From Paludibacteraceae bacterium (GTDB lineage Bacteria > Bacteroidota > Bacteroidia > Bacteroidales > Paludibacteraceae), in assembly GCA_024401475.1 (NCBI GenBank), contig JAKSKZ010000001.1, positions 62,001 to 126,000 on the forward strand: a stretch of 64,000 nucleotides of DNA, in the 5' to 3' direction. The stretch's first letter is position 1, and each line of letters begins with the position of its first letter. A program made the position numbers and the translations under genes. The notes beneath the pieces were generated by a model. It was given only the letters and a program-made list of their open reading frames with translations, was not told the DNA's origin and did not search any database. Of the stretch, positions 27,595 through 30,008 are shown in pieces.

Positions 27595-28152
27595 ATGACG
27601 AACATCAACATCAAAAACATGGTTTGCCCTCGATGCATCACAGCTGTGAGGGCAATACTTGTATCTATGGGATTCACCATCAAAGATGTCACTCTCGGAA
27701 AAGCTGTGATAAATGACGACCTTACCGATGAACAACTTAAATCACTGGCAAACAAATTGTTGGATGAAGGATTTGAATTTCTTGACAATCCCCGTTCTTG
27801 TATTGTTGAGCAGATAAAAATTGGCGTGCTTCAATGGGTGCGAATGCATAACCAAAGACCAAAACTTTCCGATTATATCAGCGAAATCGTTCATCGCGAC
27901 TACAGCAGCCTAAGCAAACTTTTCACGCAGGTTAAGGGAATGACAATCGAACATTATGCCATACTGCATCGTGTGGAATATGCCAAAGAACTTTTGAGTT
28001 ATAGTCAACAATCCGTCAGCGAGATTGCCTATCAACTAGGCTATAGTTCGCCGTCGCACCTTACAAGTCAGTTCAAGCAGCAGACAGGAATGTCGCCAAA
28101 AGAATTTCGCGAGATGAAAAACAAAAATCGTTTACATCTCGACGAGTTATAA
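27595..28152 (+). CDS. AraC-family regulator with N-terminal HMA-like metal domain
   Basis: A 185-residue regulator. Residues 1-65 resemble a ferredoxin-like HMA domain (NMVCPRC, Cys11 and Cys14). The C-terminal domain (about 85-180) is a double helix-turn-helix of the AraC type, with HRVEYAKELLSYSQQSVSEI and YSSPSHLTSQFKQQTGMSP. A metal-binding sensor fused to the DNA-binding part, 3 bases after a metal permease, suggests that it senses the exported metal and controls the operon. The candidate operator is at 26261-26280. Such regulators are known beside metal transporters in Bacteroidales. Confidence 0.87.
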   Translation: MTNINIKNMVCPRCITAVRAILVSMGFTIKDVTLGKAVINDDLTDEQLKSLANKLLDEGFEFLDNPRSCIVEQIKIGVLQWVRMHNQRPKLSDYISEIVHRDYSSLSKLFTQVKGMTIEHYAILHRVEYAKELLSYSQQSVSEIAYQLGYSSPSHLTSQFKQQTGMSPKEFREMKNKNRLHLDEL

Positions 28153-28231: not shown

Positions 28232-28405
28232 TTAGAAGTTGTATGTTAATACCCTTTGCAGCAACAATGTGGTCTTGCCTACTCCTCTTGGACCCTTTAA
28301 ACCAATAAGTCTATCGTTCCAATCCATACGATCATACATATATCTATGAAACCCAATCGGAGTTTCTGACAACATTGTATTAAACCTATTTTGAAGTCTT
28401 TCCAT
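28232..28405 (-). pseudogene. Truncated AAA-type ATPase (N-terminal fragment)
   Basis: From an ATG at 28405 the minus strand encodes 57 residues and then stops. The fragment contains FHRYMYDRMDWNDRLIGLKG and the Walker A motif GPRGVGKTTLL, as in the first 60 residues of Bacteroidales ATPases of the AAA/DUF4143 type. The remaining 300-odd residues are missing. A palindrome, TTGCAC-N8-GTGCAA, and a CAATTTTG box lie just upstream, so the original promoter region is still visible. Confidence 0.75.
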
Positions 28406-28467: not shown

Positions 28468-28627
28468 ATGGTGTACGATCGAGAAACTGAATTAGCGGAA
28501 CTTCGTCGCATCAACGACCTTGCTGAGCAATCATCTCAGTTTACGGTGTTGCTTGGACGTCAACGTACAGGGAAAAACCAAAGCTTTTAAAGACCGTCCG
28601 TACTTATATTTCTTCATCGGACAAAAA
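28468..28627 (+). pseudogene. Frameshifted and truncated ATPase remnant (archaeal-ATPase/DUF234 type)
   Basis: An ATG at 28468 opens MVYDRETELAELRRINDLAE and VLLGRQRTGK, the N-terminus and Walker A region of the archaeal-type ATPases common in Bacteroidales. The frame stops at 28590. Removing one A from the run of five at 28573-28577 restores TKAFKDRPYLYFFIGQK, which is the expected continuation with a few residues missing. Similarity ends near 28627 at a hairpin. The gene is therefore broken by a frameshift and lacks most of its length. Confidence 0.75.
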
Positions 28628-28663
28628 TCCCCGATTTTCCTGGCGGAATATCGGAGATTTTTG
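28620..28663. terminator. Hairpin between the ATPase remnant and the intact ATPase gene
   Basis: ACAAAAATC-C-CCGAT at 28620-28634 pairs with ATCGG-A-GATTTTTGT at about 28648-28662, a long stem with one internal mismatch. On the minus strand it lies immediately after the stop codon of the ATPase at 28664 and contains GATTTTTGT, so it may be a bidirectional terminator. Confidence 0.6.
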
Positions 28664-29878
28664 TCAGCATTCGGGAATGTGATTTAGGAAATCAATAATA
28701 TTTATATGTTTGATTCCATTTCTTGACATATCTATTGAGTCGGCACTAATCACATACTTGGGATAACTATTTCTAATTGATTCTATATTGCCAAATTCCC
28801 TATCTATATCATGTTCCGTGATTAAATATGCCACCTGTATATACATTGTTTTGTCGGCTTTTGTACAAACAAAATCAATTTCAACATCATTAAGTTTACC
28901 GACATAGACATTCCATCCTCTGGCAACCAATTCCATATATATCAGATTCTCACATACATGACCTATATCTTGCTTATCCGTTCTGCTTAAAATTGTGCGG
29001 AATCCCAAATCCACACAATAGTATTTCTCAGAAGTTTCAAGGAGTTTCTTACCCGTTATGTTATAACGTGGTACCGAATATAAAGCAAATGATTTCGTTA
29101 TTGCTTCAATATAAGACAAAATAGTGTCAACACTCGTACTAACACCCTCACTTTTCAGTTTTTTAACTATAGAATTAGCAGAAAAAGTGTTGCCTATATT
29201 ATCAACAAAGAAATCAAGCAGTTTTCTCAATAGTATAACATTCTTTATACCATTTCTTTCTACTATATCTTTTAGGACAACTGTATCATACAAATCTGAA
29301 AGATAAACTTTTCTCGCGTCATCATCATTAAAAACAAACCTTTGAGGAAAACCACCATACTTCAAAAATTCAGCAAAGAGTTTTTCATCAGATATCGCAA
29401 CCCCTTCATCTTTATAATACTGTTTTGCCTCAACGAAAGAAAAAGGAAAAATATTGAAAGACACATATCTACCACGCAAATTTGTCGCTAACTCACCGGA
29501 CAGCAATCTTGAATTTGAACCGGTAATATAAATATCGCAATCAAAATCCACTCGGAATGAATTTATCGCTTCCTCCCAATTCTTAACCTCTTGTATCTCA
29601 TCAAACAAAAGATACACTTTTCCCTCACATGTCGACTGCCACTGACAAACATAATTATATAGGCTGTCAGCATCCTTAATGTGATCAAAACGTTTTGACT
29701 CATAATTTACATTAAGAATGTTACTTTGAGACACGCCACGTTCAAGCAACAGATCCTTTAACTGTGTCAATAAAGTACTCTTACCACAACGTCGGACCCC
29801 CATAAACACCTTTATCAAATCCTTGTCTATAAAAGGCGACACCTGCTTTATATAACTATCTCTACGTACCATAGCCAT
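28664..29878 (-). CDS. AAA-type ATPase with DUF4143 domain
   Basis: A 404-residue protein of the AAA_14/DUF4143 type. Walker A is FMGVRRCGKSTLLTQL (near 25-40), Walker B is VYLLFDEIQEVKNW (near 87-100), and sensor-like GSNSRLLSG follows. The middle holds a winged-helix-like segment (FSANSIVKKLKSEGVSTSVD) and the end a nuclease-like fold (VEIDFVCTKADKTMYIQVAY). The family is abundant, poorly understood and often behaves as accessory DNA. The gene is intact, but remnants of two other ATPase genes lie beside it. Three regularly spaced palindromes and a TAATTTTG box precede it, so its expression is probably tightly controlled, perhaps by its own winged-helix part. Confidence 0.9.
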   Translation of the reverse strand: MAMVRRDSYIKQVSPFIDKDLIKVFMGVRRCGKSTLLTQLKDLLLERGVSQSNILNVNYESKRFDHIKDADSLYNYVCQWQSTCEGKVYLLFDEIQEVKNWEEAINSFRVDFDCDIYITGSNSRLLSGELATNLRGRYVSFNIFPFSFVEAKQYYKDEGVAISDEKLFAEFLKYGGFPQRFVFNDDDARKVYLSDLYDTVVLKDIVERNGIKNVILLRKLLDFFVDNIGNTFSANSIVKKLKSEGVSTSVDTILSYIEAITKSFALYSVPRYNITGKKLLETSEKYYCVDLGFRTILSRTDKQDIGHVCENLIYMELVARGWNVYVGKLNDVEIDFVCTKADKTMYIQVAYLITEHDIDREFGNIESIRNSYPKYVISADSIDMSRNGIKHINIIDFLNHIPEC

Positions 29879-29888
29879 TAATTTGAGA

Positions 29889-29896
29889 CAAAATTA
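29889..29896 (-). promoter_or_regulatory. -7 box for the AAA/DUF4143 ATPase
   Basis: Minus-strand TAATTTTG matches TAnnTTTG exactly, 10 bases before the ATG at 29878. The first palindrome of the array at 29901-29926 covers the spacer and -33 position, as an operator would. Confidence 0.6.
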
Positions 29897-29900
29897 CAAA

Positions 29901-30008
29901 TTCTTTCAGTCTGAGGACTGATAAAATCATAAAAATTTAATTTTTATCCGTCTATAGACTGATAAAATTAGTTTTTTTTGAATTTTATCTGCCTTAAGGC
30001 TGATAAAA
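29901..30008. repeat. Three 26-bp palindromes with exact 41-bp spacing
   Basis: Each unit is an inverted repeat of the form TTTTATCnGYC, a 4-base centre, and GRCTGATAAAA. Units span 29901-29926, 29942-29967 and 29983-30008; their centres are at 29913.5, 29954.5 and 29995.5, exactly 41 bases apart. The centres differ (TGAG, TATA, TTAA), and compensating changes keep the arms paired (AGTC/GACT in the first, GCC/GGC in the third). Unit 1 has a weaker left arm. Spacers of 15 bases are unrelated and AT-rich. Forty-one bases is close to four helical turns, so the sites face one side of the DNA. Confidence 0.85.

Follow-up and report, generated by a model that had tools for sequence, protein, structure and literature searches.

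A palindrome array at the promoter of an AAA_14/DUF4143 ATPase gene in Bacteroidales and the clade-specific helical spacing of related arrays

The stretch of DNA described here, referred to as the window, comprises 64,000 nucleotides of contig JAKSKZ010000001.1 (positions 62,001 to 126,000) from a Paludibacteraceae bacterium. It encodes an AAA_14/DUF4143 ATPase of 404 amino acids on the minus strand (28664-29878), and the gene is preceded by an array of three 26-bp palindromes that have no strand. Unit 1 is promoter-proximal (29901-29926), unit 2 is the middle unit (29942-29967), and unit 3 is distal (29983-30008). The start-to-start steps are 41 and 41 bp, and these coordinates bear out an earlier note on this DNA, made from the sequence alone, which had reported three palindromes with exact 41-bp spacing upstream of the gene. 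Unit 1 is imperfect, with two mismatches in its gene-proximal arm (GAAAGAA instead of GATAAAA on the gene strand). The compensating changes in the arms that had also been proposed come down to a single symmetric substitution in unit 3, where GCC/GGC replaces GTC/GAC.

Within this genome the palindrome is specific to this locus beyond chance. With up to three mismatches allowed, the pattern is confined to units 1-3 in the window, where dinucleotide shuffles give an expectation of 0.01 sites. A search of the whole genome at the same tolerance returned units 1-3 and one three-mismatch site on another contig, and a reversed control pattern gave one match. Neither the window nor the genome pattern search found a copy of the unit at the 3' end of the gene, and there are no paired terminal repeats. 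Across 149 Bacteroidales genomes the palindrome with three mismatches was matched no more often than the reversed control, and no exact match was found in viral contigs. The arrangement is not that of a CRISPR (clustered regularly interspaced short palindromic repeats) array, as 15-bp spacers, instead of unique spacers of 20-50 bp, separate the 26-bp palindromes and no cas-like gene was identified among the neighbours examined.

A TAATTTTG box lies on the minus strand between the array and the start codon (29889-29896) and matches the Bacteroidetes -7 element, which has the consensus TAnnTTTG. A counterpart, TATTTTTG, followed by the start codon, occupies the equivalent position in four related loci (L038-L041). 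The earlier note had placed an exact box 10 bases before the ATG. The box is present and the spacing is right for the first ATG at 29878, but the homologues suggest that the true start is the second ATG at 29872 (MVRRDSY), which would give a protein of 402 amino acids. A sigma-70 promoter scan gave hits at chance level only, and the sigma-70 model does not cover Bacteroidetes promoters. Downstream of the gene, a conserved 3' flank on the minus strand (28624-28663) contains an inverted repeat followed by a T run, which by eye looks like the terminator of the ATPase gene, although the automatic terminator scan listed nothing at these positions.

The ATPase belongs to the PDC-S01 family of PADLOC, whose hidden Markov model matches residues 2-399 with an E-value of 4.9e-154. 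The protein also matches AAA_14 (E-value 1.3e-32) and DUF4143, whereas no NCBIfam model matches it and a sequence search of the PDB found no significant relative. The Walker A (GVRRCGKS) and Walker B (LLFDEIQ) motifs are intact, and their key residues are invariant across 50 homologues. An AlphaFold2 model built on the alignment of these 50 homologues has a mean pLDDT (predicted local distance difference test) of 91.2. Assignment of the domains from the order of secondary structure and from motifs places an AAA+ domain at residues ~1-200, a winged helix at ~214-288, and a PD-(D/E)XK-like domain at 305-399. The closest solved structures are PABY2304 (2qen, Z 18.5) and SSO1545 (2fna, Z 18.2), followed by NLR (nucleotide-binding leucine-rich repeat)/CED-4 proteins and Orc1/Cdc6. 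In the PD-(D/E)XK-like domain D335 is retained, but the canonical E-x-K is replaced by Q348-V-A, so the catalytic motif is incomplete; this motif belongs to the architecture reported for PDC-S01 but does not enter into the definition of its hidden Markov model. Nearly all members of the clade with 41-bp arrays share this replacement, with E-I-D-F...Q-V-A/S/T at residues 333-350 and Q-x-[ATSC] in place of E-x-K, whereas a clade with 33-bp arrays and proteins of ~415 amino acids retains E-x-K. Because of this replacement, DNA cleavage may have been lost in the 41-bp clade. PDC-S01 has been reported to rank fourth in frequency among prokaryotic defence candidates and is described as an ATPase fused to a PD-(D/E)XK domain, with experimental validation stated to be pending for most such candidates (PMC12988326).

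Similar palindromes upstream of homologous genes had been named in the earlier note as an observation whose absence would refute its proposal, and the comparison of upstream regions does not refute it. Homologues that are 86-90% identical (L011 and L038-L041, from other genomes) have three to four palindromes of this type spaced by 41 bp, and their flanking genes and spacers are unlike those of the window locus. Nucleotide homology between the window and L038-L041 begins at 28624, just beyond the stop codon, and extends into the array. For L039-L041 the homology stops at 30008, which is the last base of the outermost unit, and for L038 and L011 it stops inside the array. The edge of the array at the outermost unit is often the point where homology between relatives ends. 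Across 14 units from five loci the palindrome retains 1.63 bits per column; the spacer columns on either side retain 1.02 and the four central bases 1.12. These comparisons of sequence support the linkage of the array to the ATPase gene, with which it moves. L038 (1-2860) is 95% identical downstream to L039, L040, and L041, and the DNA immediately upstream of its array has been exchanged; the exchanged segment encodes two P-loop GTPase-like genes.

Arrays of this kind are common in the family. For 123 non-redundant Bacteroidales AAA_14/DUF4143 genes, with start codons picked by rule, the 260 bp before the gene were compared with themselves without gaps at lags of 15-99; the best match served as the array score, and an array was called at a score of at least 12. 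A tandem array was found upstream of 90 of the 123 homologues, compared with 20 of 300 ordinary genes sampled in 20-kb segments of these genomes and in the window (Fisher 9e-44) and 7 of 615 mononucleotide shuffles. The shuffles are a lenient control, and the ordinary genes provide the stronger comparison. There are two main clusters of best lags, at 32-33 and 40-42; a minor one lies at 23, and multiples also occur. Array period and protein clade go together: 5 changes account for the three period classes (23, 32-33, and 40-42 bp) on a tree of 154 homologues, and shuffled labels require 31.2 on average and 26 at minimum. A lag of 39-42 was predicted in writing beforehand for a held-out set of 40 further homologues of the window's clade, one of which has no upstream DNA. 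It was the best lag in 25 of the remaining 39, against 4.9% of shuffles (~2 expected, p ~1e-23). A separate DUF4143 clade (L112, L114, L130, L006, L190, and L071) features 23-bp direct repeats without dyad symmetry, at a spacing of ~2 turns. Some arrays contain at least 6 copies, and arrays of the L058 type consist of many near-identical copies with homogeneous spacers.

The units of these arrays are located at the promoter. For the 33- and 41-bp classes the median array end, under a permissive definition of that end, lies no more than 5 bp from the start codon, and units in Bacteroidales abut or contain -7 boxes identified by consensus match. As would be expected of a self-operator, the sites thus overlap or abut the putative promoter of their own gene, and with promoter elements judged in this way their position is the geometry of a repressor operator.

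The sequence of the unit diverges with the protein. Within a period class, genes whose proteins share more than 60% identity have highly similar motifs, and below ~40% identity the similarity falls to background; this relationship was not seen in the small 23-bp class. Most motifs differ among the paralogues of one genome, in which no co-resident pair has an identity above 0.7, although the pairs are too few for significance. In the 3-turn clade with ~415-amino-acid proteins, the unit consists of a near-constant anchor, AAAARTGT, and a variable segment such as TCGTCCCG, TCGCTTG, ATCTCC, or GGTTCCT. AAAATGT was found in 21 of 29 genes (1.8 expected) and AAAGTGT in 17 (1.0 expected). The hypervariable segment in this clade (L104, L124, L118, L110, L103, L088, L125, and others) is 5-9 nucleotides long, and anchors similar to AAAARTGT occur in plasmid homologues of Acinetobacter and Segatella. 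The motifs tested are private to their gene. All 17 matches of the ACACTTTTATCnnGATAA motif in four genomes of three genera fall within the array of the cognate ATPase gene, and for the two motifs examined in four genomes sites occur in the gene's own array only, beyond chance. The genome of the window has its own ACACTTTTATCnnGATAA array, L091, which is inverted relative to the gene when compared with the arrays of relatives. The motif is therefore found in both orientations to the gene, which favours double-stranded DNA as the functional form.

Homologues in other phyla and a sister family also feature arrays. The best lag is 39-40 in 6 of 11 homologues of the window's clade from other phyla (binomial p 3e-6); of these six, Monoglobus and Ruminococcus reach significance individually, and the other four score weakly. 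The self-match score detected no arrays in window-clade homologues of Listeria and Lachnospira. By eye, the array units of Ruminococcus and Peptoclostridium contain TATACT or TATAAT. Plasmid-borne homologues of the 3-turn clade have 32-33 bp arrays in Collinsella, Fusobacterium animalis, and Acinetobacter, and periods of 33 and 66 in Glaesserella. In the sister family, PF01637, arrays were found in 15 of 27 genes, 11 of them at 51-54 bp or double that period and one at 63 bp, and most consist of long palindromes. Those at 51-54 bp (~5 turns) lie in upstream regions of ~300 bp (L251, L249, L268, L259, L248, L270, L263, L247, and L252), and the palindrome of L251, TTTCCAAAAGT...ACTTTTGGAA, is one example. 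The 63-bp array belongs to L246 and corresponds to 6 turns. Expressed in turns of 10.5 bp, the array periods are ~2.2, 3.1, 3.9, and 5.0. The suggestion that 41 bp represents about four helical turns fits this series, in which other clades have ~2 or ~3 turns and the sister family ~5.

In the explanation that we favour and consider moderately probable, the ATPase would occupy its own array along one face of the helix and control its own expression. The array would be the private operator of the ATPase gene, and the protein, most likely through its winged helix, would bind each 26-bp palindrome as a dimer. With a separation of about four turns, neighbouring dimers would share one face of the DNA and form a cooperative assembly across the promoter, and the ATPase would limit its own synthesis until its ATP state or an infection changes the assembly. 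Spacing would be fixed in each lineage by the geometry of the protein assembly, and the recognised sequence would diversify from gene to gene. We infer the binding by the ATPase, the dimers, the cooperativity, repression as the sign of regulation, and the link to infection. Three observations make the ATPase the leading candidate for the binder: the motif diverges in step with the protein, the two motifs examined are private, and the model features a winged helix. The same evidence sustains the ATPase as the candidate named in the earlier note. The interpretation given there as a whole is partly supported.

Several observations weigh against an autoregulatory operator. About one quarter of the homologues and one entire clade have no detectable array, and dyad symmetry reaches significance in only part of the arrays (41-bp class, 6 of 18; 33-bp class, 23 of 56; 23-bp class, 0 of 9). 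The 23-bp period corresponds to 2.2 turns and not exactly 2. A scan for covariation between protein windows and motifs gave weak signals that were inconsistent between clades, and the recognition helix was not singled out. In addition, homologous genes are not independent samples.

Other explanations assign the array a different role or a different binder. In one that we regard as unlikely, the array is an assembly or safety platform on which an ATPase with a PD-(D/E)XK domain is assembled or held inactive, so that the array would be a storage or sensing site and autoregulation a by-product. Release could occur, for example, when a phage disturbs transcription or degrades host DNA. Array copies of 6 or more exceed the need of a simple operator, the fold resembles the nucleoside triphosphatase core of NLR/CED-4-type proteins that assemble on activation, and PDC-S01 is listed as a candidate defence family that is common in prokaryotes (PMC12988326). 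The units are, however, located at the promoter in most genes, as expected of an operator, and the literature read contains no demonstration of defence activity for the PDC-S01 family. The platform is compatible with all observations and differs from the operator mainly in what matters for function. The frequent end of homology at the outermost unit could also mean that a mobile gene cassette ends or inserts at the array, which either the ATPase or an unlinked recombinase would recognise. The upstream flanks of L038 and L039-L041 were exchanged at the array and the downstream flanks were kept, and there are many paralogues per genome and many plasmid copies. This explanation is quite unlikely; the 3' end lacks both a unit copy and paired terminal repeats, the units overlap the promoter, and a period in helical turns suits binding over end recognition.

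Binding of all arrays by an unlinked host regulator or nucleoid protein would account for the anchor AAAARTGT common to the 3-turn clade and to some homologues of other phyla, but is very unlikely, given that motifs mostly differ between the paralogues of one genome, track protein identity across genera, and, for the two motifs tested, were not found elsewhere in the genomes. That the palindromes act as RNA hairpins, in an attenuator or leader structure, is extremely unlikely. The array strand folds better than shuffles (z -4.2), which is a trivial consequence of the palindromes; the -7 type box lies between the array and the ATG, one motif is found in either orientation to the gene, many arrays lack palindromic symmetry, and a search of the array against Rfam found no family at the gathering threshold. 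The earlier note had likewise placed an RNA role behind DNA binding, and the promoter-overlapping units and the motif in both orientations agree with it. Neutral minisatellite growth upstream of ATPase genes, which arrays such as L058 with their near-identical copies and homogeneous spacers might suggest, is barely credible for the family, since the 14 window-family units keep the palindrome while their spacers vary and since the period is clade-specific and was predicted correctly on held-out genes.

The neighbouring genes include a regulator, contrary to the earlier statement that no separate regulator is encoded nearby. An AraC-type helix-turn-helix protein is encoded at 27595-28152. It was rejected as the binder of the array, as its gene does not occur in the flanking DNA compared for the homologues with arrays. 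The plus-strand segment 26329-28152 encodes an ArsP-type permease with a C-terminal heavy-metal-associated (HMA) domain followed by this regulator, and the two form an apparent metal-response pair. Directly downstream of the array-linked ATPase gene are two ATPase remnants, at 28232-28405 on the minus strand and 28468-28590 on the plus strand. The first is an AAA_14-type N-terminus with a Walker A motif (GPRGVGKTT), and the second is a short PF01637-like N-terminus with a weak match (E-value 0.02), which suggests that such genes have repeatedly been gained and have decayed at this locus.

Proteins related in fold or in logic differ from the ATPase in their DNA sites. SSO1545 and PABY2304 (2fna and 2qen) are the best structural match over the AAA+ domain, lid, and winged helix (Z 18), and PF01637, the sister family, likewise carries arrays; for the solved proteins themselves we know of no arrays or DNA targets. 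Orc1/Cdc6 combines an AAA+ domain with a winged helix and binds repeated DNA sites at origins. The archaeal proteins match the ATPase with a Z of 14 (2qby and 1w5t), below SSO1545 and the NLR proteins, and their repeats constitute a replication origin, whereas those of the ATPase lie at a single-gene promoter, have a patchy distribution, and are gene-specific in sequence. MalT is a regulator of the STAND (signal transduction ATPases with numerous domains) class that oligomerises on arrays of MalT boxes and activates other operons. A maltose-system entry (8bob) is among the Foldseek matches of the ATPase, but MalT acts on other operons and the ATPase motifs tested occur only at their own gene. 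RptR, a dedicated 9-kDa repressor of a phage-defence island, recognises three 9-bp repeats over the -10 box (PMC12255303). It offers a precedent for the logic and not for the protein: in both cases repeats lie at the promoter of a defence or candidate defence locus, in that of RptR over the -10 box and with the repressor encoded in the locus, whereas the ATPase arrays share no separate small regulator and their repeats are 2-5 turns apart. PADLOC places the window ATPase in the same single-gene PDC-S01 family of ATPases with a PD-(D/E)XK-like domain, and the available part of the published account covers the protein only and mentions no upstream array (PMC12988326); the window clade differs in having Q-x-A instead of E-x-K.

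A full-text literature search, with preprints and most subscription papers outside its reach, found no published description of these arrays. Autoregulatory operator arrays are a known kind of element, while gene-specific arrays with lineage-set helical spacing across a major candidate defence family appear to be new. A family-wide cis-element may hint at the first action of the protein, namely specific DNA binding as an ordered assembly. The arrays are ready DNA substrates for each homologue, and function may be missed when an ATPase gene is expressed apart from its own array. The different periods amount to a natural experiment on the influence of protein geometry on operator spacing, and many protein-DNA specificity pairs are available in the variable half of the unit. 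A more far-reaching and doubtful possibility is that the array is part of the effector machine, serving to store or assemble the ATPase-nuclease until infection brings about its release; PDC-S01 and the sister ATPases would then be single-gene elements addressed to private arrays with spacing in helical turns. If this is the case, the array would be a second, DNA-only component of a system that has so far been listed as single-gene.
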